Assembly (NCBI RefSeq): GCF_008329965.1
Contig: NZ_CP036150.1
Location: forward strand, 682,001-746,000
Source: Oceanispirochaeta crateris
GTDB lineage: Bacteria > Spirochaetota > Spirochaetia > DSM-2461
Length of the DNA stretch: 64,000 bases
Direction of reading: 5' to 3'
The notes below the pieces were generated by a model that worked only from the letters and a program-made list of their open reading frames with translations, did no database searches and was not told the DNA's origin. Each line of letters opens with the position of its first letter. The stretch's first letter is position 1. This document shows positions 36,112 through 51,690 of the stretch, one piece after another. A program made the translations under genes and the position numbers.

Positions 36112-37176
36112 TCAGCCCTCTCCATGGTAAATACATACTCTGTTTCTTCCCTCTGCTTTGGCATTATAAAGGGCAATATCAGCTTTTTTTACGAGCTCTT
36201 CAGGATTTTTTTCTCCTTCGTATTCGGCTATGCTAATACTGACTGTCAATCTTAGACCACCTGGCCAATCCTCATACTCTTCTATTTTATTTCTCATCCT
36301 TTCGGCTACAATAAAAGCTTCTTTTAAACACAGATCATCCAGATAACAAATGAATTCTTCTCCCCCATATCGGGCAAAAATATCGGCTCCCCGTATCATT
36401 TCAGTGCAAATTCTGCTGAGTTGAATCAAGACCAAATCTCCAACATCATGGCCTTTGCTGTCGTTGACTTTCTTAAAAAAATCAAGATCCAGCATGAGAA
36501 GACAAATCGTTTTATCCCTGTGACGGGCCAGACTGAAAAAATGCCTGCTCAAGGTTTCGTTAAAATAGAGCCGGTTAGGGATGGCGGTGAGTGGATCATG
36601 ACGGGCTTCGTGGCTCGCCGTTTCTCTGGACTTTATAAGGCGCTTTTCAAGTTGTTTTGATTCTGTGGTATCCGTTATTGTAACTGAAATACCACGGATG
36701 CCCCTTAGGGGATACAGGTTTTGCATCACAAGTTGATAATAACGTTCCTGTTCCAGCTGGAGAGATGTGAGATCCAGTTTCATGTTTTGCTCCGGATTCA
36801 AGGCCGTAACCGTTTGAAGGCTTTGCTCCAGTTCCCAGTGGTTTTCCTTTTCAAAGAAATCAAAGAGTGAATCTTCCCAGAACACTCCTGTAATACACTC
36901 TTTAATGGCTCCTTTTGTATTGCAGATCAGGATGGTTTCATTGGAATTCTGAAGAAGCCTTTTAAAACGTTTCCGGCTTTCGAATTTGGTACTTAGAATC
37001 CAGAGGATGAGGACGGTTGTTGTGATAAACAATATAAATAAATATGCGACCAAATGATCTGAAGCAAGGGATTTATTTCTTAAAACTGATTGAGTTTCAT
37101 CACCATACAAGGCTGATCCTGATGCTAAAGAGATGAGAAATATAACAATCCTCCTGAACCGTGATTGATCCGGCAT
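36112..37176 (-). CDS. Membrane diguanylate cyclase
   Basis: A 354-residue protein with a signal-like first helix (10-24), a transmembrane helix (43-62), a PAS-like region (about 70-170) and a C-terminal GGDEF domain. The active site is GGEEF at 271-275. An inhibitory RxxD site is present 5 residues before it (RGAD 262-265), so the enzyme should make cyclic-di-GMP and be product-inhibited. GGAGG lies 4 nt before the ATG. It begins 19 nt after the nitrilase-fold gene on the same strand, at the downstream end of the Pel-like cluster, which suggests a dedicated signal source for exopolysaccharide control. Confidence 0.9.
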   Translation of the reverse strand: MPDQSRFRRIVIFLISLASGSALYGDETQSVLRNKSLASDHLVAYLFILFITTTVLILWILSTKFESRKRFKRLLQNSNETILICNTKGAIKECITGVFWEDSLFDFFEKENHWELEQSLQTVTALNPEQNMKLDLTSLQLEQERYYQLVMQNLYPLRGIRGISVTITDTTESKQLEKRLIKSRETASHEARHDPLTAIPNRLYFNETLSRHFFSLARHRDKTICLLMLDLDFFKKVNDSKGHDVGDLVLIQLSRICTEMIRGADIFARYGGEEFICYLDDLCLKEAFIVAERMRNKIEEYEDWPGGLRLTVSISIAEYEGEKNPEELVKKADIALYNAKAEGRNRVCIYHGEG

Positions 37177-37195
37177 TAGTCCTCCGGGTTCAGTT

Positions 37196-38161
37196 TCAGG
37201 GGAGCTTCGTTCTTAAAATTTCAAAGGAATCTGAGACATCACTGATATCCCTGTAACTGACCTTACCCTTATGATTATAAAGTATACTGGACTCACCTTC
37301 CCATAATAAATCAAGAAAATTACCTGTCAGGCAGGCGGTGATGCCGTAGGGGATGTCCGTATTTCCCAAGCGAGCGGGGAGGGCTCGGGTGAAGAGGCTT
37401 TTTTGATCCTCCGTGTAAGCCACTCCGTTTGCCTTGATATCTACCCATAGATCTCCTTCCGTATAGAGTGTTTCCCAGTCATTGAGAAAAGTATCCCTGC
37501 AGATGGTGAGTCTTATGAGGTGATTTTTGACGGTGAACCCAGGAGTTTTGAAAATATTTCCTGGTCTAAGATCCAGAATTTCTTCTTCAAACTCGGTGAG
37601 AAAATATTTGTCTTGTCTGTAAAAGACCTCTCCCTGAGGGTTGTAAACCACAGCCTGATTCACAAGGCCGCCCCGGGAGGCGCTGTAGTTTAACCTTGTG
37701 CCGCTGAGTATGTAGACTCCGTATCGTGAGGCTAAGTCACCCCATAGCTTGTTTAGAAACGCGTCGTTTCGTTCCGATTCTCTTAAAAACAAGTCATTGA
37801 GGCTGCTGATCTCGGGATGATCCTGTCTGATGGTAGCCCAAACCTCTTCAAAGGGTGAATCAGAATCCAGGTAGGAATCCCAGGGAATAAGAGATGAAAA
37901 AACACCTATGTATTCGGGAAATATGACAAGATCTGCAGAACCGCCGGACATCGCTTTTTCCATGGCCTCTTCCATGGCCATTCTGTAAGCCTCTTCGGAA
38001 TCGCTGATATGGTCGTTCATTTCAAATTGTACAATTACCGTATGCAGTTCTTCGAAAGGGGTCATAGCAGTTAGGGACATCATTGGAAAAATCAGAAGAA
38101 TAATCATATAAAAAAATACCTTCCCTCCGAGAAGGGAAGTTCCGCATGAGTTGTAATTCAT
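37196..38161 (-). CDS. Secreted nitrilase-superfamily carbon-nitrogen hydrolase
   Basis: A 321-residue protein with a hydrophobic leader (about 15-31) followed by a CN-hydrolase fold. The Glu-Lys-Cys triad is visible: E83 in FPEYIGVF, K185 in RQDKYFLTE and C221 in TICRDTF. Members cleave or form amide bonds. An exported single-domain member is unusual, and the eight-helix membrane part of Lnt is absent. The ATG at 38161 has GGGAG 4 nt upstream. However, a terminator-like hairpin (38112-38141) lies inside the first codons, and an in-frame ATG at 38107 directly after its U-run is an alternative start. It lies between the lipoprotein and the diguanylate cyclase of the Pel-like cluster. The substrate is unknown. 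Confidence 0.78.
   Translation of the reverse strand: MNYNSCGTSLLGGKVFFYMIILLIFPMMSLTAMTPFEELHTVIVQFEMNDHISDSEEAYRMAMEEAMEKAMSGGSADLVIFPEYIGVFSSLIPWDSYLDSDSPFEEVWATIRQDHPEISSLNDLFLRESERNDAFLNKLWGDLASRYGVYILSGTRLNYSASRGGLVNQAVVYNPQGEVFYRQDKYFLTEFEEEILDLRPGNIFKTPGFTVKNHLIRLTICRDTFLNDWETLYTEGDLWVDIKANGVAYTEDQKSLFTRALPARLGNTDIPYGITACLTGNFLDLLWEGESSILYNHKGKVSYRDISDVSDSFEILRTKLP
38112..38141 (-). terminator. Terminator-like hairpin after the lipoprotein gene
   Basis: On the minus strand CTTCCCT (38141-38135) pairs with AGGGAAG (38128-38122) over a 6-nt loop, followed by a U-tract interrupted near its start (38120-38112). It overlaps the 5' end of the nitrilase-fold frame if the upstream ATG is used. 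Confidence 0.55.
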
Positions 38162-38172
38162 ATATCTCCCGC

Positions 38173-39201
38173 TTAAAATGTATAATTCATCTCGTTATCG
38201 ATGGTAAAGGCTTGACCGAAGGAGGGGACAACATTGGTAGAAGACTTTACCGTTTTCTTTCCATTCTTTCCTATGGCATAGCGGATTACCGTCTCAGAAA
38301 GTGTTTCATCCTCTCCGCCGCTGAAGATCCAGTCCAAAAAATCAGAATACCAGTCATCATCGGCCCAAGTGGGAACTGATCTGGAGAGAGTATGCTCATA
38401 AGCCAGAGAGGATTTTGTATATTTGTCATTGCCCTCGTCTTTTTCGGTATAATATCTAACGCCGAAAATCTCTTTATTCTCATTGAGGAACCATCCAATT
38501 GGACTGATGATTTTCTGGTAGTAATAAACCTTGCTGCTGAAACTTACCTCGCCCGAGGCGGATGGTGATGTTGGAACCCAGTCGGGATCGGAGGGTATTA
38601 CCATATCCCCATCTAAGGGAAACTGGGCATAATATCCGGCATAGGGATCGTTTGTGTCATAGGCAATCCATTCTTTTCGGACGCTTCCATCCTGAAAGAC
38701 CACTTCCATGGTTTCTCTGGCCAGGGGGTTTGTAACCCAGGCATCTCCATCTTCTTCAACCACAGAACCATCCTTCCATAGACCGCTGAGCCATATATCC
38801 TGTAGATAATAGACCTCCAGATAGTAATCTATGAGATCGCTCTTATTAGGGTACTCTGTGCGGGATGACACCTTATAGACTTTATTTTCTGTGAGGTCAG
38901 GATCTGCATCCGTGACAGTGATGTATGTCTTTTGGCCCTGTTCTGGGTAGTTGTTGACCTTAATTCCATCGCTGCCCAAAGCTATGACTTGATCATAAGT
39001 ATATCCATCGTACTTATCCCACCAGGTCGGGGCGCTTGCCCGGCTGCTGCCCTCATCTGCCAGAGCCGTTTCTTCACCGGCCATCATATAGTATCCGGCG
39101 AGAAGGTAATCGGTTCCGACAACGGCTTCATCAGACCCGGAATTACATCCTGAAAGGATCAGGCCCGCAATCATCAGCAGGAACGTACTCATTTTTTTCA
39201 T
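38173..39201 (-). CDS. Unknown lipoprotein in Pel-like cluster
   Basis: A 342-residue exported protein with a clear lipobox (LILSGC, Cys19), followed by a Ser/Gly/Asp-rich linker. The mature part is rich in Tyr, Trp and acidic residues and looks mainly beta-structured; I recognise no domain. GGAGG lies 6 nt before the ATG. It follows the pelG-like gene after a 121-nt gap that has no obvious strong promoter. Position and anchoring suggest an outer- or inner-membrane accessory to polysaccharide export, perhaps filling the place of PelC, but there is no sequence evidence for that. Confidence 0.7.
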   Translation of the reverse strand: MKKMSTFLLMIAGLILSGCNSGSDEAVVGTDYLLAGYYMMAGEETALADEGSSRASAPTWWDKYDGYTYDQVIALGSDGIKVNNYPEQGQKTYITVTDADPDLTENKVYKVSSRTEYPNKSDLIDYYLEVYYLQDIWLSGLWKDGSVVEEDGDAWVTNPLARETMEVVFQDGSVRKEWIAYDTNDPYAGYYAQFPLDGDMVIPSDPDWVPTSPSASGEVSFSSKVYYYQKIISPIGWFLNENKEIFGVRYYTEKDEGNDKYTKSSLAYEHTLSRSVPTWADDDWYSDFLDWIFSGGEDETLSETVIRYAIGKNGKKTVKSSTNVVPSFGQAFTIDNEMNYTF

Positions 39202-39322
39202 TCAACACCTCCGTGTTTCTCAGTTCTATAACCAAATTAACAAATTTCAATATTTCATAAATAAATTCAAAATCAGATTAAAATATACATCCCGCTGGAT
39301 TGAAAAGCAAAAGGAGACTTCC

Positions 39323-40735
39323 TTAACGCGGTAATTTCAGTTTTTCAAGGTTGTGTTCCCGAATATCCCGCAGCTGCCCCTTGGTTATGGCTGTGAACAT
39401 GATTCTGTCCAGGTTTTTCAGGGAATAATGAAGAAAAGCGCCGGCGCAGATTGTTCCTGCAAAGACTCCCAGCAGAGAGGACATTCCCGGGGTGATCAAA
39501 TTTCCCTCCTTTCCAATCCAGGCCAGGGCGCTGTTGCAGGAAAAAAACAGAGCCGTGCTGATCAGGACATATTTGTACTGTTCAATATAAAAAAGGAAGT
39601 TGATCATGCAGATAAAGAGGCCAAGCATTAAAATCCCCAGGGCTGTGGGTATGATGATCCTCATTTGAAGGCTCAACTGAGGGTGATTGACAGAGATGAC
39701 TAAGAACAAGAGGGTGAAAACAGCCTGAAAGCCAAACTGCTCCCTTAAAATATGTTTGTTCGTACTGACCAGGACAGAGCGAAAGGCCTGAATCTCATGA
39801 TAGGGTTTTCTGGACAGGCTATTCAGGAATTTTTTAAGGGTCATATAAAATTCTGTTTCGGAATAAATAACAAAAAAAACGAGACCTGGGATCATCATGA
39901 GGTTGGTTAGGTAGACAATTATGTCATAACTTGGATAGAGTCTCATGATCGAATTGCCAATCACATCGCCCTTGGCAAACCAGTAGATCATCTTGTCAAT
40001 CCAAAGAGCTCCATAATACAAGAATCCAGTGGCAAACAAATATTTATAACGCTTCATATAACGGTAGAATTCACCTTTCACAGTGACTTTTTCCCAACCC
40101 ATATCCTGTTTTAGGTAGATGAAGACAATGGTAAAAAGGATGACCTGTCCTAGGGCATAAGCCAGAAGGAGAGCTTCACTCCCAATGAGTTCCATTGCAG
40201 CTTTCATTAGGAGAAGAGAGCCGGACATCCCCAATATAAAACCAAATAGGAGCTGATTAAACCGCTTCATTGCTGAAGCTGTGAGCATCAGTATCCATAT
40301 ATGGTTGATGACCACAAAGAGGAGGATGAATCCCGCCTGGTGCAGCTTGGAGACCCCGGATAAAAAGAGTACTGACAGAAAAAAGGCTAGGGGAATCAGG
40401 AACAGATTCGATTTGACCATATAGTTGAGGGTATAAGCAAAGGCTTTTCCAGGTTCATTTCTGTACAGGTAGTCTGAAAGTATACGGGTGAAGATATAAT
40501 GAAATCCTCCGTTTAATATGAGGGAGAGAGAGTAGGTGTAGACCGTTGAGGCAACAAACAGCTCTCTGAATTCCAGGGGAATCCCCATCACAGGCTGTTG
40601 AAACAGCAAAATTGTCAGGATGGAGATAAGCCAGGGACCGGCGACGATCATGATACCCGACAAGGAGGCCTGAAACACTCCTCTTGCATTTCCCAGGGAG
40701 GCGACCTTCCTCAGTTCAAATCCTATGCCGGCCAT
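39323..40735 (-). CDS. pelG: PelG-like exopolysaccharide membrane transporter
   Basis: A 470-residue protein with about 12 membrane helices. The N-terminus MAGIGFELRKV is the hallmark of PelG, a MOP/Wzx-fold protein thought to move the Pel chain across the inner membrane with PelD-PelF. AAGGAT lies 4 nt before the ATG, and the gene begins 1 nt after the pelF-like stop. The C-terminal 25 residues are cytoplasmic and charged. Confidence 0.9.
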   Translation of the reverse strand: MAGIGFELRKVASLGNARGVFQASLSGIMIVAGPWLISILTILLFQQPVMGIPLEFRELFVASTVYTYSLSLILNGGFHYIFTRILSDYLYRNEPGKAFAYTLNYMVKSNLFLIPLAFFLSVLFLSGVSKLHQAGFILLFVVINHIWILMLTASAMKRFNQLLFGFILGMSGSLLLMKAAMELIGSEALLLAYALGQVILFTIVFIYLKQDMGWEKVTVKGEFYRYMKRYKYLFATGFLYYGALWIDKMIYWFAKGDVIGNSIMRLYPSYDIIVYLTNLMMIPGLVFFVIYSETEFYMTLKKFLNSLSRKPYHEIQAFRSVLVSTNKHILREQFGFQAVFTLLFLVISVNHPQLSLQMRIIIPTALGILMLGLFICMINFLFYIEQYKYVLISTALFFSCNSALAWIGKEGNLITPGMSSLLGVFAGTICAGAFLHYSLKNLDRIMFTAITKGQLRDIREHNLEKLKLPR

Positions 40736-40736
40736 C

Positions 40737-42146
40737 TTATCCTTTTAACTCCCTTACAGCCAGTTCTTTATACATCTCTTTATACCGGCGGTGCAGGTCT
40801 TTTTTATCATAAAAATTGAGAACCTTCTGATAATTTTTAACCCTTAGTTTTTCAACCTCATCCGGATTGTTGTAGAGGTAGATGATCCCATCGGCGAGCT
40901 TGCTACTATCCTTGGAGGGAGCCAGAAAGCGTTCATCAAAGTTTAAAAGCTCAGGGACATTTCCGACAATGGTGGAGACGGCGGGCACACCGGCACAGTA
41001 TCCTTCTAAAAAGACAAGAGGCTGAGCTTCTCTTACACTGGTCAAAAGAAGAACATTCAGGAATTTATAGTACTCTCTCACATCCTGTCGTCCTGTGAAT
41101 TGGAAGACATCACCAAGTTTCAGATTTTCTACAAGCAGTTTACAGTCGTCATAATATCCCTCGTCTTCATCGCTGGGACCAATGCAGTAAAATCGGGCTT
41201 CGGGAATTCTGTCTGCCACTATCTTACAAGTAGAAATAAATGTCTTAATATCCTTGATGGGAACAACCCGGCCGACGAGACCCACATGAAATCCGGGCCT
41301 TTCCTCCCGTTTGATTGTAAACCGTTCAACATCGATGCCATTGGGGATGACTTCAGTGCGGTCTTCGGGGGCACCCAGTTCCAGTTGTTTTTGTCTATTT
41401 TCTTCAAATAAAGCCGTTATATGGTCTGCCTGACTGTAACAAATTTTACTAATTTTATTATAAATCTTAGTCCACATATCCCTCTGATAGCCTCTGACAA
41501 TTGCAGTTTTCCGTATTTCCATTTCCCGTTCTTTATGGTAAAGACCATGTTCTGTCAAAAGGAAGGGTTTGTTATGCCTGTACCTAGCTGCCAGAGCTGC
41601 CAGTCCCGCAAAACCAGTGGATACAGCATGATAAATGTCTGCCTCGGGGGCCTCTGCACCCAGAATGCTAAAGAGCATGTCATGAGAGGATTTCCAGGCC
41701 CAATAATAATCAGAGAAGGGATAGAGGGGGTTATTTTTTGTATTTCCCCTGGTAATCATATTCCAACCGATTCTGGATTTGACGGCCAGGTGGTATAGAA
41801 AGGTATTTTCAGGAATCATGCCGATCATTGTCTTTATTTCCGTTTCTGAACCCGATTCCATGCGCTGGTGAAATTGCCATATTTCTTTCATGAGTTTGAC
41901 TTTTCTCTTTGGCGATTTCAAAACCGTTCCCGGTGGGGCTCCTATCAGGATGTCCCTGTTTTCTATCACATTGGCGGGCAGATCATATCGCAGGGGCTGA
42001 TTTGCTTCGGGAGAAATAGTAAAGAGTTTAAAATCTATATCGGAAAGATTGACAATAAGATCATGTACCCAGGCCGACACCCCGCCCGTAATATAAGGGT
42101 AGGATCCCTCTAGAATGATGCAGACACAAAGACGTTTTTCACTCAT
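40737..42146 (-). CDS. pelF: PelF-like GT4 glycosyltransferase
   Basis: A 469-residue retaining glycosyltransferase. RLCVCIILEGSYPYITGGVSAW at the N-terminus and the EX7E motif (E373 to E381 in REAQPLVFLEGY) identify the PelF branch of GT4, which polymerises the chain from UDP-sugar in the cytoplasm. I place the start at ATG 42144-42146, with GGAGGGG 5 nt upstream, overlapping the upstream stop (ATGAGTGA). A frame extended by 20 residues to 42206 lies wholly inside the upstream gene and has no ribosome site. Confidence 0.92.
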   Translation of the reverse strand: MSEKRLCVCIILEGSYPYITGGVSAWVHDLIVNLSDIDFKLFTISPEANQPLRYDLPANVIENRDILIGAPPGTVLKSPKRKVKLMKEIWQFHQRMESGSETEIKTMIGMIPENTFLYHLAVKSRIGWNMITRGNTKNNPLYPFSDYYWAWKSSHDMLFSILGAEAPEADIYHAVSTGFAGLAALAARYRHNKPFLLTEHGLYHKEREMEIRKTAIVRGYQRDMWTKIYNKISKICYSQADHITALFEENRQKQLELGAPEDRTEVIPNGIDVERFTIKREERPGFHVGLVGRVVPIKDIKTFISTCKIVADRIPEARFYCIGPSDEDEGYYDDCKLLVENLKLGDVFQFTGRQDVREYYKFLNVLLLTSVREAQPLVFLEGYCAGVPAVSTIVGNVPELLNFDERFLAPSKDSSKLADGIIYLYNNPDEVEKLRVKNYQKVLNFYDKKDLHRRYKEMYKELAVRELKG

Positions 42147-42873
42147 GAGAACCCCTCCAGAAAGAGATAATCTTTCCCTCTTCGGCCGATCTTTCTGGAT
42201 CTTCACATATGTTCTCCAGTATTTGACGGACCTTTTTCATCTCTTTTTTCTGAAAGGCTATTTCAAGCTTTAAGAGTCTGCTCTCTTTATGATCGGGTAA
42301 AATCTGTTCTGCCTGATCATAGAGCTTGAGGTGCATGAGAATCCGGATGAGGAGGAGCCTGTTGTTATCAGTCGCGATGTCTTCATTTTCAAGACCTCCC
42401 AGCATCAAATAGGCTTCTTTCATATAAAAATTGCTGAGAGTGCTTTCATCTTTGTTCAAGATAGCCAGCTGATAATAGACTTCGGCTGCATCGGCACGAT
42501 CCTTGGTCTCGTTGTCCTCTTTTATTCTTTCTTTCAGCTGGGTCAAACGGTTGTTGTACTCTTTTTCAAGAGCATTGAGACTCTCCGCAGCAAAAAGAGC
42601 CACTTCCTTGTCTTCGTCCCGGGCAATTTCGCTGAGTACTGTTTTGAGGATCAGGTTTGTTTCCAGGTCTCTGTTCTTCTTTGACAGGAGCCATTCAATC
42701 TCATCCAGGCTATAGGGCTTTTTCAGGATGGGATTCAGAGCTGTTGATTTGTAGATGAAGGCCTCAATGGGCAGAATCTTATCAATCGTGGCCTGAAGGG
42801 CTGCACTGGGTGTCTTGGGAATATAAAGAGCCCTGAGTTTGTGTATATAGGAGTAAGAATCTTTCCTAATCAA
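42139..42873 (-). CDS. PelE-like helical/TPR-type protein
   Basis: A 244-residue, mostly helical protein with a long charged central helix (about 90-130) and TPR-like repeats near the C-terminus (YQLAILNKDES; LIRILMHLKLYDQAEQIL; LEIAFQKKEMKKVRQIL). I name it PelE-like from its place between the PelD- and PelF-like genes and its repeats. No strong sequence motif defines PelE, and unlike Pseudomonas PelE it lacks N-terminal membrane helices. Overlaps of 4 nt with pelD-like and 8 nt with pelF-like genes make co-translation near certain. Confidence 0.6.
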   Translation of the reverse strand: MIRKDSYSYIHKLRALYIPKTPSAALQATIDKILPIEAFIYKSTALNPILKKPYSLDEIEWLLSKKNRDLETNLILKTVLSEIARDEDKEVALFAAESLNALEKEYNNRLTQLKERIKEDNETKDRADAAEVYYQLAILNKDESTLSNFYMKEAYLMLGGLENEDIATDNNRLLLIRILMHLKLYDQAEQILPDHKESRLLKLEIAFQKKEMKKVRQILENICEDPERSAEEGKIISFWRGSHE

Positions 42874-44261
42874 ATTTTTTGAATCTCCAGAAGGTATTCC
42901 GCTCTTTTTATCAAGTCATCTGGGTCTACTTTTTCATTGGTTCCATTGGAAGAATATCCCAGACTGACATCGAGTGAAATGGTCTGTCCTTCCAAAATCC
43001 ATTTTTTACTGTTGATATATTCCAGTGACTGCAGGCAAAAAAGGGAGCAGCCGTCATAGTCCAGATGGGGGATGTACATCGCCATCATCGAATCTTGACG
43101 GTAATGAAATATTTCAGAACTGTTGCTATTGTGATCGGATAATTCTTTCAGCAGTTCTGCCTGCAGATTCAGAATTTTTTCATAGCCGTAATGCTGGGAC
43201 AGTTCAGAAAATTCCAGAAAGTCAAAGATGATGAGACTGGAGGTGTTGAATGTTCCTGAATCATCATATCGGTTCTTATCCAGTATCCTGTAGAGTTGAG
43301 TGAACTGGGGCAACCCTGTTGTTTCATTCTGTTCATCACCGGAGAGGAGGTTTTCAAAATCCAAAGCTTTTTTCAGAGCTGGTTGACCCAGGCTAATGAT
43401 GATTTGAATCAGATTCTCTGTGTATTCGCTGTATTTAATAAAAGGCAGGGATTCTATATTGATGACGCCCCAAATCTTATTATCTAAAACCACAGGACAG
43501 CAGATGATGGAATTCTCTGTATTGAGTTTACTCAAATTGTCATAATCCAGGGTCATCCTCATTGAGAAAAGCTGATTATTACGAAATACCCACCCTTCAA
43601 TGGTATCCTGAAGATCTAGAACATCCCGGACCTTTTCGGTTTGTTTCTCACCTTTTCTCATCTTGAGTTTTAGTTTGTTAGATGAGGGATCAAAGACCCA
43701 AATAGAAATATTCTCCGCACTGGTAAAATGAATCAGTGTGTCCAGAAGTTTTGAAATGCTTATATTGGTATCCAGGCAGTCAATCTCATTGATCCTTTCA
43801 AATAAAAGGTTTAAAGAATCTTTCTGCCGGGTGACGCGTTCTTCCAGTTCATTGATTATATTCTGCTGGGCCTTGGAGATCATACTCAAGCGAGTTTTTT
43901 TATCAGAGGCCTTTCGATAGCGGATCATAATTTTATTCTTATGATTTTCTCTAAAAGCCCTCAGAGCTCCACCAAGATAGATGAATAGAGCGCCTAAGCT
44001 CACCACATTGAACAGAGACTTTATATCAGGGGCGAAATTGAAAAAATAATACCTTCCAGTCGTATAAATCAGGGCAGAGACTGTTAAGCTGACAAAGCCG
44101 GCAAATCGTCCATGCCAGAAAGAAAGAAAGAGAGAGAGGGTTAATATAAGCATTAAACCGGATGATATTTCAAAATCAAGTATAGGCAAAACTGACAAAC
44201 ATCCGATAATGCTTGCAATAAGCAGGGTTTCCGGCAGGAAATTTCTATTTTTTTGGTGCAT
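42870..44261 (-). CDS. PelD-like membrane receptor, four helices + GAF + degenerate GGDEF
   Basis: 463 residues with the PelD layout: four membrane helices in residues 10-100, a coiled-coil (about 125-160), a GAF domain (about 165-305) and a C-terminal GGDEF fold (about 315-463). The GGDEF motif is destroyed (QDSMM at 389-393). PelD of Pseudomonas binds cyclic-di-GMP through an RxxD site before this motif; here the equivalent residues read NSSE (380-383). Ligand binding may therefore be lost or changed. No ribosome site precedes the ATG; a TATAAT lies 12 nt upstream, within the shared divergent promoter region. Confidence 0.82.
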   Translation of the reverse strand: MHQKNRNFLPETLLIASIIGCLSVLPILDFEISSGLMLILTLSLFLSFWHGRFAGFVSLTVSALIYTTGRYYFFNFAPDIKSLFNVVSLGALFIYLGGALRAFRENHKNKIMIRYRKASDKKTRLSMISKAQQNIINELEERVTRQKDSLNLLFERINEIDCLDTNISISKLLDTLIHFTSAENISIWVFDPSSNKLKLKMRKGEKQTEKVRDVLDLQDTIEGWVFRNNQLFSMRMTLDYDNLSKLNTENSIICCPVVLDNKIWGVINIESLPFIKYSEYTENLIQIIISLGQPALKKALDFENLLSGDEQNETTGLPQFTQLYRILDKNRYDDSGTFNTSSLIIFDFLEFSELSQHYGYEKILNLQAELLKELSDHNSNSSEIFHYRQDSMMAMYIPHLDYDGCSLFCLQSLEYINSKKWILEGQTISLDVSLGYSSNGTNEKVDPDDLIKRAEYLLEIQKI

Positions 44262-44284
44262 ATTGGTAAATACATTATACTGTA
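44253..44284. promoter_or_regulatory. Overlapping divergent promoters of pelD-like and pelB-like genes
   Basis: The plus-strand -10 TATACT (44276-44281), with TTGGTG 17 nt upstream, overlaps a minus-strand -10 TATAAT (44279-44274). Both lie within TACATTATACTGTA (44271-44284), whose ends form a TACA/TGTA dyad. One polymerase or one bound regulator would exclude the other direction. Confidence 0.5.
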
Positions 44285-44308
44285 ATTTATTCAGGAGATA
44301 TAGATATT

Positions 44309-47300
44309 ATGGAAGTTCTTTCCCGTAAGAGCACATTTCGCATTTTTTCCTTATTCATAAGCCTGCTCTTATCCTCGGCCTATGTTTTTTCACAAGACGG
44401 CACAGGGGAAGAATTCATTCCTGCTGTAGAAGAAGAGTTACCCCTTGTTACAGAACGGATAACACCCGTTTTTCCGGACGTAGAAGAGGGACTCATCTAT
44501 GTTGAAGGTGAGTCGGCAGTCTCAACAAATTTTGCTTCGACTCCCGTATACAATTATGGAGCCTCGGGATACAAATCTCTTCAGCTCATTCAGCAGAATG
44601 CACCCTATGGAGGGCAGGCTTATTTTGCGGAATATGCTTTTTATGTTGATGAAGAGGGCAATTATGATTTCTGGTATGGAGGAACGCCTCCCGGACCGAG
44701 AGACACCCTCTTTCCTTCCTATGCCAGTCCCTTCCGGTATGTTCTTGATGGTGAAGATCCTGTTTCCGTTTACAGGGAAGACCTTGCGGTGAATGAAGCC
44801 TACACTCCATCCTATTACTGGATGTCTGTACAGACCATTCACCTATCCGAAGGTGTACACCGCATAAGGATAGAAGTTCCCGAGAAGCGGCGATATGACG
44901 GTCAGTATTACTTTTTTCTGGATGCCTTCTTTTTCCTCAGGCAGGATAGGATGGAAGAGGAGTTGACCCTTGTTCCTCCTGTCTTTCCTAAAAATAGAGC
45001 AGACCGTTCCTTTGATAATCCTTTTCAGTCCATATCATTTTATGAAAAGATCATTCAGGAAGATCCGGGTAATAAGGATGCCTATATCGTACTGTCCATG
45101 ATTTATTCCCTCCTGGGAGACTATATCAATTCCATTAAAAATCTGAATAAGGCGGCCAGTTTGGATCCCAAAGATCCCTATCCTCTGTTGTTGACTGCCA
45201 AAAACAGAATCTGGAACCAAGAAGTGACAGAGGGCTTAACCATGTACCGTCAGCTTCTGACTCTGGCACCGGATAATGTCTCTTATTGGACAGAAGCGGG
45301 TAAGGTTGCCGCCTGGACCGGTAATTACAGAGATTCTATAGATTTTTTCACAAGGGGATTGGAAAAATTTCCGGACAACCTGAGTTTAAAGGTCAACCTG
45401 GGACTGACATACCTTTGGATGTCCCGCACTGAGGATGCTGAAACCGTATTCAAGGAAGCTCAGGAAAGTACGGAAGGCTCACACGACAAAGCCATGGAGC
45501 TGGGAAGCCTCCATAAAATCAACGGATATCCACAGTATGCCCTAAACATTTACAATCAAGATCTTCTCGAGTCACCAGAATACCTTGAAACCTACCTCAA
45601 TCTGGAAGAATCATACAGGTTGTTGGGAGATACAGAAAAAGCAGAAGAAATTATTCAGTATGTTTATGATTCTTTTGAAGAGAGCCTAGCTTTGTCTGAA
45701 TATATGAATGTGTATGAAGAGAAAAAATCCATGAAGGACGGCATCCTTCAGGCTTATATGAAGGCTCTGGAAGAACAACCCGATAACATTCCCCTGAGAC
45801 AGCTCCTATCCCAGACCTTCTTTTGGAATGGTATGAAAGAGGAAGCCGTAGACCACTCTCTGAGAATACTCATCAATAAGTTGTATACAAGCATGAGAGA
45901 GTTTGACACAAAAGCGGCTGATCTGCTATCTCTTCTCGACCGGTTTTTCCGTTATGAGGAATTGTTTTTACAGACAGAAGACGCTTATCAGACGGGGAGC
46001 CGGGAGCTGACGGCAGCTCAAAACAACTATGAGAAGGCTTTGGCATCTGCTGCAAAAAAAACTGAGGATACATCTCTTGCCGCAAAAGCGGATCTGGCTA
46101 CCCAGGAATACGTGGAGGCCTATGAATTGTACAAACTCTGGTCCTCCCGAATGGAAGAACTTGATCGAAACAAGGCGGGCTTACTCAAGGAATGGACCGC
46201 TCTGCTGGATGCCGAAAAGGAAAATGAATCCGTATTCCGTCAACTCCTGGGTGAATCAGAATGGACCTGGGACAGGGAGTTTAATCTGAATGAACTGAAC
46301 CAGGTTCAGCGTTCAGAACCCTTTCTCTCAGGCTATGTCCTGTCGCGCTTGGCTCTTTTTGAAGGAAAAGTGACAGAAGCCGGGAAAATCATCGATTCCG
46401 ATCTCTTTGCAGAAGATCCTCCTTCACGGTATGGGCTGTATCAGAGTCATCTTTGGAACCTGAACAGGGCGGACCAAAAAGAAATGTGGGCCGAAGAAGC
46501 CGATATCCTCACCCTCTACAGGCAGCATCTTTTTGATATGGAGGCTTCTGAATGGAAAGAGGGAGAGGCCCGTTTCATCATACCCCTCCCAGAAGAAACC
46601 GAGGCTCTCAGGGCCGAAATGACGGAACGATCCCAAAAATTTAAGGCCGATAAGGAAGAGAATTCTCGTCTTATTGCAGACATGCGCCAGGCACTGGATC
46701 AGATGCTGGTACGTCAGATCTATTATTATGAGCAGGATACGTATCTTCTGCGCTATTCACTGGGTGACTACTATCTCGAGATGGATGAAAATCTCAAAGC
46801 TACGAGACAGTTTGAGCGAGTCCTTGCCATGGACCCTTGGAATATCAGTGCCAATTATAAGCTTGGAATTGTCAGTCAGCGTTACGGAGACTGGTCCCGG
46901 GCGATGGATCAGTATAAAAAAGTGTATTACCAGAACCCCGGGTATGAGAATGCATCCTACTACTATAATCAGCTGGCTAGAGAGAATGCCGATACTGTCT
47001 CGGTGAGTGCTCAGAATATAACTGATCCTACCAGGATCAAATATGTTGCCAATGCGGCCTATCAGTCAAATCTGAACAGCTGGTTGGGCTGGGGGTTGAG
47101 TTATGACCTGACGATGGACAGAAAGTACAGGGTCTATGAAACAGGAGAAATACCCAATCAGTACAAGCTGCACAGTCTGGATTTTAATGCTCCGCTCACA
47201 TACAACAAATGGAACCTCGTTGTCACACCAGTGGCTGGGCTGTACCTTTGGAGCGACCTCTACGGTGTCGATGAGACTCGGGATTTTGGTGATTCCCTCG

Positions 47301-48040
47301 TCACACCCGCCGATACGGCAGAGGCCATGAATGTTAAACCCCTGCTGGGTCTGGATCTGGATTGGGGTAAAGATTTTTTGGAAACAGGTTTGTCCTACAG
47401 GTATCAGCTGGAAGAGGAGTCTCTTTTTTCTGATAGAAATTTAACAAGGTCCCATTTTATGAGTGCCCATGGGGATACCTATTTTCCATTAGAAAGTTCC
47501 TATGACTGGGGACCTGTGATGACCAGAACCTATGGACAATTTGAGATCCTCGATACTGTGTCAGGAGAGTCCAATCAGAACTTCAAAGGACAAATCCTAC
47601 AGGATGCTTCCATCACATATGTAGCTTTCCGTGAGCCAATGATCCGCTTGACAGCCAATGGAACGTTTAACTTTGAAAACGGCAGTGTCAGCGACACCAC
47701 CATGACCGATTATTATCTTCCCCGGGGTGTCCTGGAGGCAAAGGGCGGTCTAAGGGGAACAATCAATTTTCACAATGAAGAATATACAGAGGCTTTGGAG
47801 ATCAGTTTATTTGGTGCCGCCGGCGGATATTGGACGGATATCATCCAGAGGGAAGATCAGACTCAATCCATGAAGATGGAGGGCCTGTTCAGCCTCTCTT
47901 ATGTGAAGCAGACAATGACTCTTTATTTTCTTTTGAGTGGTAACGGCACTTTTAATACAGAAGATTCCGCTCTCAATTTCTGGGAATTCGCCGCTAGAGT
48001 GGGAGCCAGGATCAGCGTTCCTTCACTTTTGACCAATTAA
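44309..48040 (+). CDS. PelB-like outer-membrane protein: CBM-like domain, TPR array, beta-barrel
   Basis: A 1243-residue exported protein. A signal peptide (1-29) is followed by an acidic linker and a beta-sandwich region (about 60-215) resembling CBM6/35: it opens with VEGESAV and closes with LSEGVHRIRIEVPEKR and FFLDAFFF. TPR repeats occupy about 235-480 and 800-890 around a long helical section (540-720). The last 340 residues (from about 900) alternate aromatic and polar residues in short strands, as in an outer-membrane barrel. This order and size match PelB, the TPR-porin that exports Pel, apart from the extra N-terminal domain. AGGAG lies 11 nt before the ATG. It diverges from the pelD-like gene. 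Confidence 0.75.
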   Translation: MEVLSRKSTFRIFSLFISLLLSSAYVFSQDGTGEEFIPAVEEELPLVTERITPVFPDVEEGLIYVEGESAVSTNFASTPVYNYGASGYKSLQLIQQNAPYGGQAYFAEYAFYVDEEGNYDFWYGGTPPGPRDTLFPSYASPFRYVLDGEDPVSVYREDLAVNEAYTPSYYWMSVQTIHLSEGVHRIRIEVPEKRRYDGQYYFFLDAFFFLRQDRMEEELTLVPPVFPKNRADRSFDNPFQSISFYEKIIQEDPGNKDAYIVLSMIYSLLGDYINSIKNLNKAASLDPKDPYPLLLTAKNRIWNQEVTEGLTMYRQLLTLAPDNVSYWTEAGKVAAWTGNYRDSIDFFTRGLEKFPDNLSLKVNLGLTYLWMSRTEDAETVFKEAQESTEGSHDKAMELGSLHKINGYPQYALNIYNQDLLESPEYLETYLNLEESYRLLGDTEKAEEIIQYVYDSFEESLALSEYMNVYEEKKSMKDGILQAYMKALEEQPDNIPLRQLLSQTFFWNGMKEEAVDHSLRILINKLYTSMREFDTKAADLLSLLDRFFRYEELFLQTEDAYQTGSRELTAAQNNYEKALASAAKKTEDTSLAAKADLATQEYVEAYELYKLWSSRMEELDRNKAGLLKEWTALLDAEKENESVFRQLLGESEWTWDREFNLNELNQVQRSEPFLSGYVLSRLALFEGKVTEAGKIIDSDLFAEDPPSRYGLYQSHLWNLNRADQKEMWAEEADILTLYRQHLFDMEASEWKEGEARFIIPLPEETEALRAEMTERSQKFKADKEENSRLIADMRQALDQMLVRQIYYYEQDTYLLRYSLGDYYLEMDENLKATRQFERVLAMDPWNISANYKLGIVSQRYGDWSRAMDQYKKVYYQNPGYENASYYYNQLARENADTVSVSAQNITDPTRIKYVANAAYQSNLNSWLGWGLSYDLTMDRKYRVYETGEIPNQYKLHSLDFNAPLTYNKWNLVVTPVAGLYLWSDLYGVDETRDFGDSLVTPADTAEAMNVKPLLGLDLDWGKDFLETGLSYRYQLEEESLFSDRNLTRSHFMSAHGDTYFPLESSYDWGPVMTRTYGQFEILDTVSGESNQNFKGQILQDASITYVAFREPMIRLTANGTFNFENGSVSDTTMTDYYLPRGVLEAKGGLRGTINFHNEEYTEALEISLFGAAGGYWTDIIQREDQTQSMKMEGLFSLSYVKQTMTLYFLLSGNGTFNTEDSALNFWEFAARVGARISVPSLLTN

Positions 48041-48104: not shown

Positions 48105-48956
48105 TCAAAGTCTAAAGAGACTCTTGCATTCCTGAAAGAGGGGGTCGTCTTTCATTTCGACCATGAATTTATCCTGGAAATAATTCAGTTGTTCCAATTT
48201 TAATCCCGAGTATTTCAAATAGGGATCTAAGGCTGTTTTCATCTTCTCGGAAAAGTCTATTTCATGGAGCACAGAAGTCAAAAGGTCTGCAATGGACACA
48301 ATGACAATCATCTCTTTATGGGGAGACTGAATGTTCAAATTGCCATGTTCACCCGCAGTGTCAGAAAAACTTTGGGGAAAGTTCCAGCTCTCCATGATTC
48401 TTCGGCCTATCTCCCTGTGGTTCACACCAAACATACTGGTTTCTTCGCTGCATGTTTTTCCCTCATCCACATTAATGAAGGGCATGATCTTGTCATAGGC
48501 ATTTAATTCTGATTCATACAAACTCATTTGGCCTATGTCATGAAGGAGTCCTGCAAGGAACGATTCCTCCCTGATTCTGCTTGCTCCGCTCATGTCACAA
48601 AGCTTCTGGGAAATAAAGGCCGTGACCAGAGAGTGCTGCCAAAAATATTTATAAAAGGGTGAAAGAGATTTCTGACTGAACATATTAGAGGCAGTCAAAA
48701 GCATGATGAGGCTTTTAATCGCCTTGAATCCCATGAGGGATATGGCAGTTTGAAGGCGTGATATCTGCTGCTGTCTGGCATAGAGGGAAGAGTTGGCCAC
48801 TTTTAGTATCTTTGCGGTGAGTCCCGGGTCCATGCTGATAAGACGCTCCAGTTCTGCAAAAGAAACTTCATCCATATCTTCGGCGAAAGTCAGTACTTTC
48901 GTTGCCACATCGGGCATAATCGGAATATTTTTTAAGAATTGTTCGTATTTATCCAT
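48105..48956 (-). CDS. HDOD-domain signalling protein
   Basis: A 283-residue single-domain HDOD protein: IPIMPDVATKVLTFAED, ISMDPGLTAKILKVANSSLY, LQTAISLMGFKAIKSLIM and EESFLAGLLHDIGQMSLYE. HDOD domains resemble HD-GYP domains but usually lack phosphodiesterase activity and act in chemotaxis or cyclic-di-GMP signalling. HDIGQ keeps an HD pair, but the GYP motif is absent. It sits next to the Pel-like locus and within 2 kb of an HD-GYP gene. The ATG lacks a convincing ribosome site (GGAACG is 12 nt away). Confidence 0.88.
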   Translation of the reverse strand: MDKYEQFLKNIPIMPDVATKVLTFAEDMDEVSFAELERLISMDPGLTAKILKVANSSLYARQQQISRLQTAISLMGFKAIKSLIMLLTASNMFSQKSLSPFYKYFWQHSLVTAFISQKLCDMSGASRIREESFLAGLLHDIGQMSLYESELNAYDKIMPFINVDEGKTCSEETSMFGVNHREIGRRIMESWNFPQSFSDTAGEHGNLNIQSPHKEMIVIVSIADLLTSVLHEIDFSEKMKTALDPYLKYSGLKLEQLNYFQDKFMVEMKDDPLFQECKSLFRL

Positions 48957-50475: not shown

Positions 50476-51690
50476 ATGACGAGCACTATGAAAAAGATTT
50501 TGCAAATCGATAAGGATCTTAATAAGATTCAGGACCTGGATATTCTTTTAGAGCGTATCCTCTATTACGCCCGGGAGGCCGTGTCTGCAGATGCGGGTTC
50601 CATCTATATCCGGGACGGCAATGAGCTGGAAATCAAATATGCTCAAAATGACACTTTGCAGAAGAAGCTGGCTGAGGGGCAGAAACTCAATTTCTCAATC
50701 TTCAGAATCCCGGTCAATGAAAAGACCATTTCAGGATATGTCGCCGCCAATAGCACGCATCTGAACATTCGTGATATGTATAATATCCCGCCGGACAGGC
50801 CCTATAGTTTTAATACCCACTACGATGAGACATCTGGATATAAGACTATTTCATCTCTGACATTTCCTCTTGTGTCTAATCAGGGAGAAATCTTGGGGGT
50901 TTTGCAGTTGCTGAACGCCAAGAGTCCTAAGGGGAATATTGTCAGTTTCAAAAAAAGTGACGAACCCTTTGTCCTTCATTTTGCCAGCAATGCAACCGTA
51001 GCCCTTCAACGGGCAAGGATGACCCGTACACTATTGTTACGGATGATACAGATGGCGGAGCTCCGTGATCCCAAAGAAACAGGGGCTCATGTTAATAGGG
51101 TCGGTTCCTACGCCTGTGAAATCTATGAGGCCTGGGCTAAAAAAAGACATATTCCGGATGATTCCATGCAGAAACAGAAGGATACACTCAGGATGGCAGC
51201 CATGCTTCATGACGTAGGGAAGGTGGGAATTTCTGATTTGATTCTTAAAAAACCGGGACGATTCAATGAAGAAGAGTATGAGATCATGAAATCCCACACC
51301 TATGTCGGGGCCCGCCTCTTTGCCAATGAAGAATCGGATCTGGATAGAATTGCGAGGGATATTGCCATCAGTCATCATGAAAACTGGGATGGGAGCGGAT
51401 ACCCCGGTAAAATAGTTTGGGAAAATGCTAAAGCCGATGAAATACTCCCTTCCGGAGTCGGTCTTAAGGGTGAGGAAATCCCCCTGTTTGCGAGGATTGT
51501 TTCTCTTGCCGATGTTTATGATGCCTTGAGCTGTCAGAGAGTCTATAAGGAAGCCTGGACAGAAGAGGATGTTCTCCATGAGATACGAAAATGCAAAGGC
51601 AATAAATTTGATCCAGAACTCGTTGATATTTTCTTTGAAATATTTCCTGTTATCAAACAGATACAGAAGAAGTACCCAGACGACCATTGA
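50476..51690 (+). CDS. GAF--HD-GYP cyclic-di-GMP phosphodiesterase
   Basis: A 404-residue soluble protein with an N-terminal GAF domain (about 20-180; ILYYAREAVSADAGSIYIRDG) and a C-terminal HD-GYP domain. The metal-binding HDVGK begins at H245, and HHENWDGSGYPG contains the GYP at 308-310; further histidines at KSHTYVGARLF and ISHHE complete the site. It should hydrolyse cyclic-di-GMP under control of a GAF ligand. AGGG lies 8 nt before the ATG. The dus gene overlaps its stop codon. Confidence 0.92.
   Translation: MTSTMKKILQIDKDLNKIQDLDILLERILYYAREAVSADAGSIYIRDGNELEIKYAQNDTLQKKLAEGQKLNFSIFRIPVNEKTISGYVAANSTHLNIRDMYNIPPDRPYSFNTHYDETSGYKTISSLTFPLVSNQGEILGVLQLLNAKSPKGNIVSFKKSDEPFVLHFASNATVALQRARMTRTLLLRMIQMAELRDPKETGAHVNRVGSYACEIYEAWAKKRHIPDDSMQKQKDTLRMAAMLHDVGKVGISDLILKKPGRFNEEEYEIMKSHTYVGARLFANEESDLDRIARDIAISHHENWDGSGYPGKIVWENAKADEILPSGVGLKGEEIPLFARIVSLADVYDALSCQRVYKEAWTEEDVLHEIRKCKGNKFDPELVDIFFEIFPVIKQIQKKYPDDH

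Follow-up and report, generated by a model that had tools for sequence, protein, structure and literature searches.

A Pel-type exopolysaccharide locus with an associated lipoprotein family in a spirochaete genome

The spirochaete locus described here contains a genuine Pel-type core gene set, confirmed at the sequence level by domain and profile comparisons. It lies within a complete 4.01 Mb genome (G000:C1:682001-746000; this 64,000-nucleotide stretch is referred to below as the window), whose closest named relatives are the metagenome-assembled genomes Spirochaeta sp. UBA5339 and Spirochaetales bin_41. We consider it fairly probable that the locus encodes a Pel-type synthase-exporter of a lineage that no longer has the Pel deacetylase/hydrolase but has acquired a lipoprotein, and that the polymer would be poorly deacetylated or not deacetylated at all and bound by the N-terminal domain of the PelB-like protein together with this lipoprotein. 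The original prediction of a Pel variant is retained as regards the Pel core, the absence of PelA from the genome and the lipoprotein, and abandoned as regards the nitrilase and the diguanylate cyclase. Not part of that description, and added here, are the HDOD gene next to pel, the domain at the N-terminus of PelB, the loss of the PelD I-site and the lack of a membrane anchor in PelE. Our literature search found no paper naming PelF, exopolysaccharide and spirochaetes together.

Layout of the locus and the Pel core

All eight reading frames predicted for the locus proved to be open at their coordinates. The features, in window positions, are as follows.

36112..37176 (-): diguanylate cyclase, at best a genus-level add-on (PF00990, E=6e-40; GGEEF and RGAD motifs)
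37196..38161 (-): secreted nitrilase-fold enzyme, at best a genus-level add-on judging by its distribution (PF00795, E=2e-5; catalytic triad)
38173..39201 (-): LIP, Pel-associated lipoprotein of a superfamily without database match
39202..39322 (-): gap of 121 bases in front of LIP; its GTATAAT-like -10 is conserved in the genus
39323..40735 (-): pelG, polysaccharide exporter, 470 aa (PF16933, E=4e-75)
40737..42146 (-): pelF, GT4 glycosyltransferase with intact ExxxxxxxE motif (NF038011, E=3e-99); start revised from 42206
42139..42873 (-): pelE-like, corresponding only to the soluble half of PelE (hhalign 99%, E=4e-18)
42870..44261 (-): pelD-like, with membrane segments, GAF and a degenerate GGDEF without the RxxD I-site (hhalign 98%, E=1.7e-13)
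44262..44308: divergent spacer of 47 bases; ATTATACTGTA-like core kept in most of the genus
44309..48040 (+): PelB-like protein with signal peptide, N-terminal beta-rich domain, TPRs and putative C-terminal beta-barrel
44450..44983 (+): N-terminal domain of the PelB-like protein, possibly CBM6/35-like (16-sequence alignment, 16 invariant columns)
48105..48956 (-): HDOD-domain gene, suspected regulator (PF08668, E=7e-48)

The genes pelD, pelE, pelF and pelG are closely spaced and some of them overlap; with its probable start at 42146, pelF overlaps pelE by 8 bases. The PelB-like gene faces them divergently, and the spacer between the two sides is likely to be their shared promoter region. The gap in front of the lipoprotein gene, with its conserved -10 element, suggests that LIP, the nitrilase and the cyclase may be transcribed separately from pelDEFG.

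The PelF- and PelG-like assignments of the original prediction hold: PelF passes the curated model (333 bits; cut-off 100) and also matches DUF3492 (E=5e-70), while PelG, encoded adjacently, matches its family over the full length (254 bits; cut-off 29). The PelD- and PelE-like assignments were likewise borne out. Domain search resolves PelD into membrane helices, GAF and a very degenerate GGDEF, and its alignment with canonical PelD, represented by the annotated plasmid-borne operons L070, L071, L156 and L158, covers the membrane and GAF parts and leaves the GGDEF part unaligned. PelE aligns with profile positions 141-337 of canonical PelE, i.e., with the soluble half; the transmembrane segments of the canonical protein were found in none of the 15 spirochaete PelE proteins.

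As to the PelB-like protein (1243 aa), its divergent position and TPR matches agree with the original prediction of a TPR-barrel protein, and it is kept in the spirochaete loci where found. Its C-terminus, however, could not be matched to the barrels of canonical PelB (hhalign 0.2%), so that it is PelB-like by architecture only, with weak secondary-structure support and a poor AlphaFold model (pLDDT 36). An extra N-terminal domain, not seen in canonical PelB, is present in all 16 aligned spirochaete proteins. By eye, it is possibly a carbohydrate-binding beta-sandwich; its similarities to CBM_6 (3 of the 16 members, best E=0.075) and to the beta-agarase chain 2cdp_A (E=2.7) are sub-threshold, and a search of solved-structure profiles gave chance-level matches only. 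In another spirochaete class (L046, L048, L052) the PelB-like proteins reach 1607-1665 aa owing to a long C-terminal extension, OmpA-like by eye.

Absence of PelA and, in the locus, of PelC; distribution of the lipoprotein

Neither PelA nor PelC was found in the window, in agreement with the original prediction. Outside Proteobacteria, PelA functions are those of DUF2194 proteins and GH114 hydrolases. The DUF2194 protein of one relative (G256) matches PDB 9ZAU (5.6e-48), the PelADA of Bacillus cereus (PMC13254593), which places DUF2194 (PF09960, CE26) in the PelADA family. Family searches of the whole 4.0 Mb genome revealed neither DUF2194 nor GH114, while the same searches gave matches in relatives and in controls such as Thermotoga maritima; for PelA, this provides the genome-wide check that the prediction had called for. 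The absence is based on these family searches because the full-length canonical PelA query, which retrieved nothing from the genome, was equally silent in DUF2194-bearing relatives. The PelC profile had no match in the window or in the pel loci of the same class; the one match obtained is close to the locus of G158, which belongs to another class.

LIP carries the lipobox LSGC (Cys19) and has no match in Pfam or NCBIfam; comparison with PHROGs gave only noise and comparison with solved-structure profiles only chance-level matches, and its AlphaFold model is poor (pLDDT 46). Of 393 spirochaete genomes, 23 have PelG above the cut-off; strong matches to the LIP profile occur in 8, each of them one of the 23, an overlap with a chance probability of ~4e-11 if the genomes are taken as independent, which they are not. 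A wider survey of relatives brought the PelG-bearing genomes to 41, of which 21 have DUF2194 without LIP, 12 have LIP without DUF2194, one (G396) has both and seven have neither. Five of these seven encode another lipoprotein, LIP2, directly after PelG (in G169, after PelG and the HDOD gene), and in the other two (G330, G047) the contig ends close to PelG. LIP and LIP2 are related and form one superfamily (96%, E=2.8e-9).

In the PelG tree, 13 LIP rows, five LIP2 rows and one row without data make up a single 19-row clade (support 100/98). The lipoprotein is present in all 18 assessable rows and in 17 of them within the locus, the copy of G424 being on another contig; it therefore belongs to the Pel system, as originally proposed. 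No member of the clade has a pel-linked DUF2194, and all DUF2194 loci fall outside it. A strict rule by which the lipoprotein replaces PelADA was nevertheless rejected. In two genomes outside the clade (G398, G402) the pel locus encodes LIP2 as well as DUF2194, so that the lipoprotein does not substitute for PelADA one for one, and in G396, of the same genus as the genome studied, LIP is accompanied by an unlinked DUF2194 gene at a distance of 40 kb. The simplest history would be an early gain of the lipoprotein followed by a single loss of PelADA from the locus.

A ConA/LamG lectin-like domain forms the C-terminus of several larger LIPs, and a role of LIP at a polysaccharide surface would fit with this. 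A second LIP relative of the same genome, a 686-aa protein with a C-terminal LamG/ConA-like domain, is encoded in an unrelated neighbourhood (G000:C1:1597684-1599744; L087:7685-9745, -). Four genomes (G020, G158, G087, G174) have two separate PelG genes each; in two of them (G020, G158) the two pel loci share a contig, where they surround PelB, DUF2194 and GH114 within a stretch of ~20 kb.

Regulation and alternative readings

In Pseudomonas aeruginosa and B. cereus, c-di-GMP is bound at the RxxD motif of PelD (PMC7112168). Both RxxD and GGDEF are missing from the window PelD and from every aligned PelD of the HDOD-linked spirochaete loci, while the PelD proteins of G417, G418 and G430, where there is no HDOD gene, retain RSVD or RNVD. 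Of 34 loci that could be assessed, 28 have an HDOD gene adjoining pel genes, its position varying from upstream to downstream, and proximity kept despite such rearrangement suggests a functional link to pel. We hypothesize that HDOD may replace c-di-GMP as the input; the linked loss of the PelD motif and presence of an HDOD neighbour would directly predict a rewiring of the exopolysaccharide synthase. Titles and abstracts on HDOD and exopolysaccharide contained nothing on Pel. Two genes past HDOD the window encodes a GAF and HD-GYP protein (50476-51690, +), likely a c-di-GMP phosphodiesterase, an 87% identical partial copy of which occupies the same place in L032.

The lack of PelA could have another explanation, namely that the system is an ordinary Pel, in which an unlinked CE4 deacetylase does the job of PelA in trans and the product is partly deacetylated as usual. 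Three generic CE4 proteins (PF01522) are encoded elsewhere in the genome, at least those of 774 and 393 aa with signal-like N-termini, and Pel is known to require deacetylation in B. cereus (PMC13254593) and, according to PMC10269871, extracellular Pel does so in P. aeruginosa. However, none of the three is linked to pel, CE4 matches occur in 11 of 14 control genomes, i.e., the family is near universal, and the loss of pel-linked DUF2194 is common to the whole clade, which makes this explanation rather doubtful. The 774-aa protein (L088:4505-6829, +; G000:C1:809504-811828) has a C-terminal deacetylase domain and weak beta-propeller matches. As for the nitrilase-fold enzyme, it could be thought of as standing in for the missing modification enzyme by removing N-acyl groups from the polymer, given its location in the locus, its signal-like N-terminus and its intact and conserved triad (E83-K185-C221). 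Against this, four of the seven genomes with a strong match have no PelG, the gene is unlinked in G374, pel linkage is confined to one genus, and most pel genomes lacking DUF2194 do not have it. No nitrilase is known to act on polysaccharide N-acetyl groups. Such a replacement is very improbable, and a general substitution of the nitrilase for PelA is ruled out by the distribution, and the enzyme is no longer counted as a member of the system.

The cyclase had been proposed to be dedicated to the locus, and it has the active-type GGEEF and its own RGAD I-site; control of Pel by this cyclase via c-di-GMP at an unrecognised site of PelD would also accord with the GAF/HD-GYP gene 2.4 kb beyond PelB. 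We regard such control as unlikely, since the RxxD site where c-di-GMP would act is missing from every aligned HDOD-linked PelD, and the cyclase gene itself is found neither in G361, a genome of the same genus, nor in the loci of other genera. Both add-ons occur in G000, G393, G395 and G396, and G361 has the nitrilase only; together they would represent at best a genus-level block. The gene order in close relatives, proposed as a check on the prediction, therefore speaks for the lipoprotein, kept across the clade, and against the two other genes. Finally, the locus could be a decaying remnant without a product, as several Pel features are lost and the LIP gene of G361 is broken by a ~70-codon deletion and a frameshift (L091, G361:C35:28500-31500), possibly an assembly error; with the core reading frames all intact and conserved over many genera, and with the catalytic motif of PelF preserved, this is hardly credible.

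Proposed function and comparison with known Pel systems

The preferred reading, a Pel-type synthase-exporter without its deacetylase, may be expanded into the following scheme, in which functions are assigned from family knowledge and synteny. PelF would polymerise a UDP-N-acetylhexosamine, PelG with PelD and PelE would move the chain over the inner membrane, and the PelB-like protein would take it through the periplasm and the outer membrane. Binding of the chain might fall to the lipoprotein and to the N-terminal domain of the PelB-like protein, which would either take over the guiding role of PelC or retain the polymer on the cell surface. In the absence of an encoded Pel deacetylase, most N-acetyl groups of the product would be kept, in contrast to cationic Pel, a partly deacetylated alpha-1,4 GalNAc polymer. 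Control is probably not exerted via c-di-GMP at the PelD I-site; among candidate inputs, the HDOD protein encoded next to pel ranks first. In its most explicit form, which we put forward as a tentative and rather speculative proposal, this would be a deacetylation-free Pel pathway: the exported polymer of N-acetylgalactosamine would be neutral, it would be caught by a binding domain fused to PelB and by a lipoprotein of a dedicated superfamily, and an HDOD protein would act as the switch instead of c-di-GMP bound to PelD. If the preferred reading is true, the synthase and exporter have been kept without the Pel deacetylase, and either export is independent of deacetylation or there is another modification route.

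With the pelABCDEFG operons of the Pseudomonas/Caballeronia type (L070, L071) the window locus shares PelF, PelG, the membrane-GAF part of PelD, the soluble domain of PelE and a large TPR protein of the outer-membrane type. In contrast to them, it has no PelA and PelC, its PelE is devoid of membrane helices and its PelD of RxxD, its PelB-like protein carries the additional domain at the N-terminus and is not detectably similar in the barrel, and the lipoprotein and HDOD are added. The pelDEADAFG locus of B. cereus (PelADA, PDB 9ZAU) has the PelD-E-F-G core in common with it. The PelADA family (DUF2194) of B. cereus is kept in relatives of the window locus (G256, G398, G402, G410, G422 and others), whereas the window lineage lost it, and the B. 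cereus PelD, unlike that of the window, binds c-di-GMP via RxxD (PMC7112168). The pel locus of Cetobacterium (Fusobacteriota; L155: GH114, GAF protein, DUF2194, PelF, PelG) has the Pel core in a diderm outside the proteobacteria, as does the window locus, but retains GH114, DUF2194 and the RDID motif of PelD, with no HDOD and no LIP annotated. Apart from these systems, a plasmid of Sulfitobacter indolifex (L157) carries pelF-pelG, with PelA, PelB and PelC unannotated, beside an OPX-type export gene, and this is another non-canonical use of PelFG.
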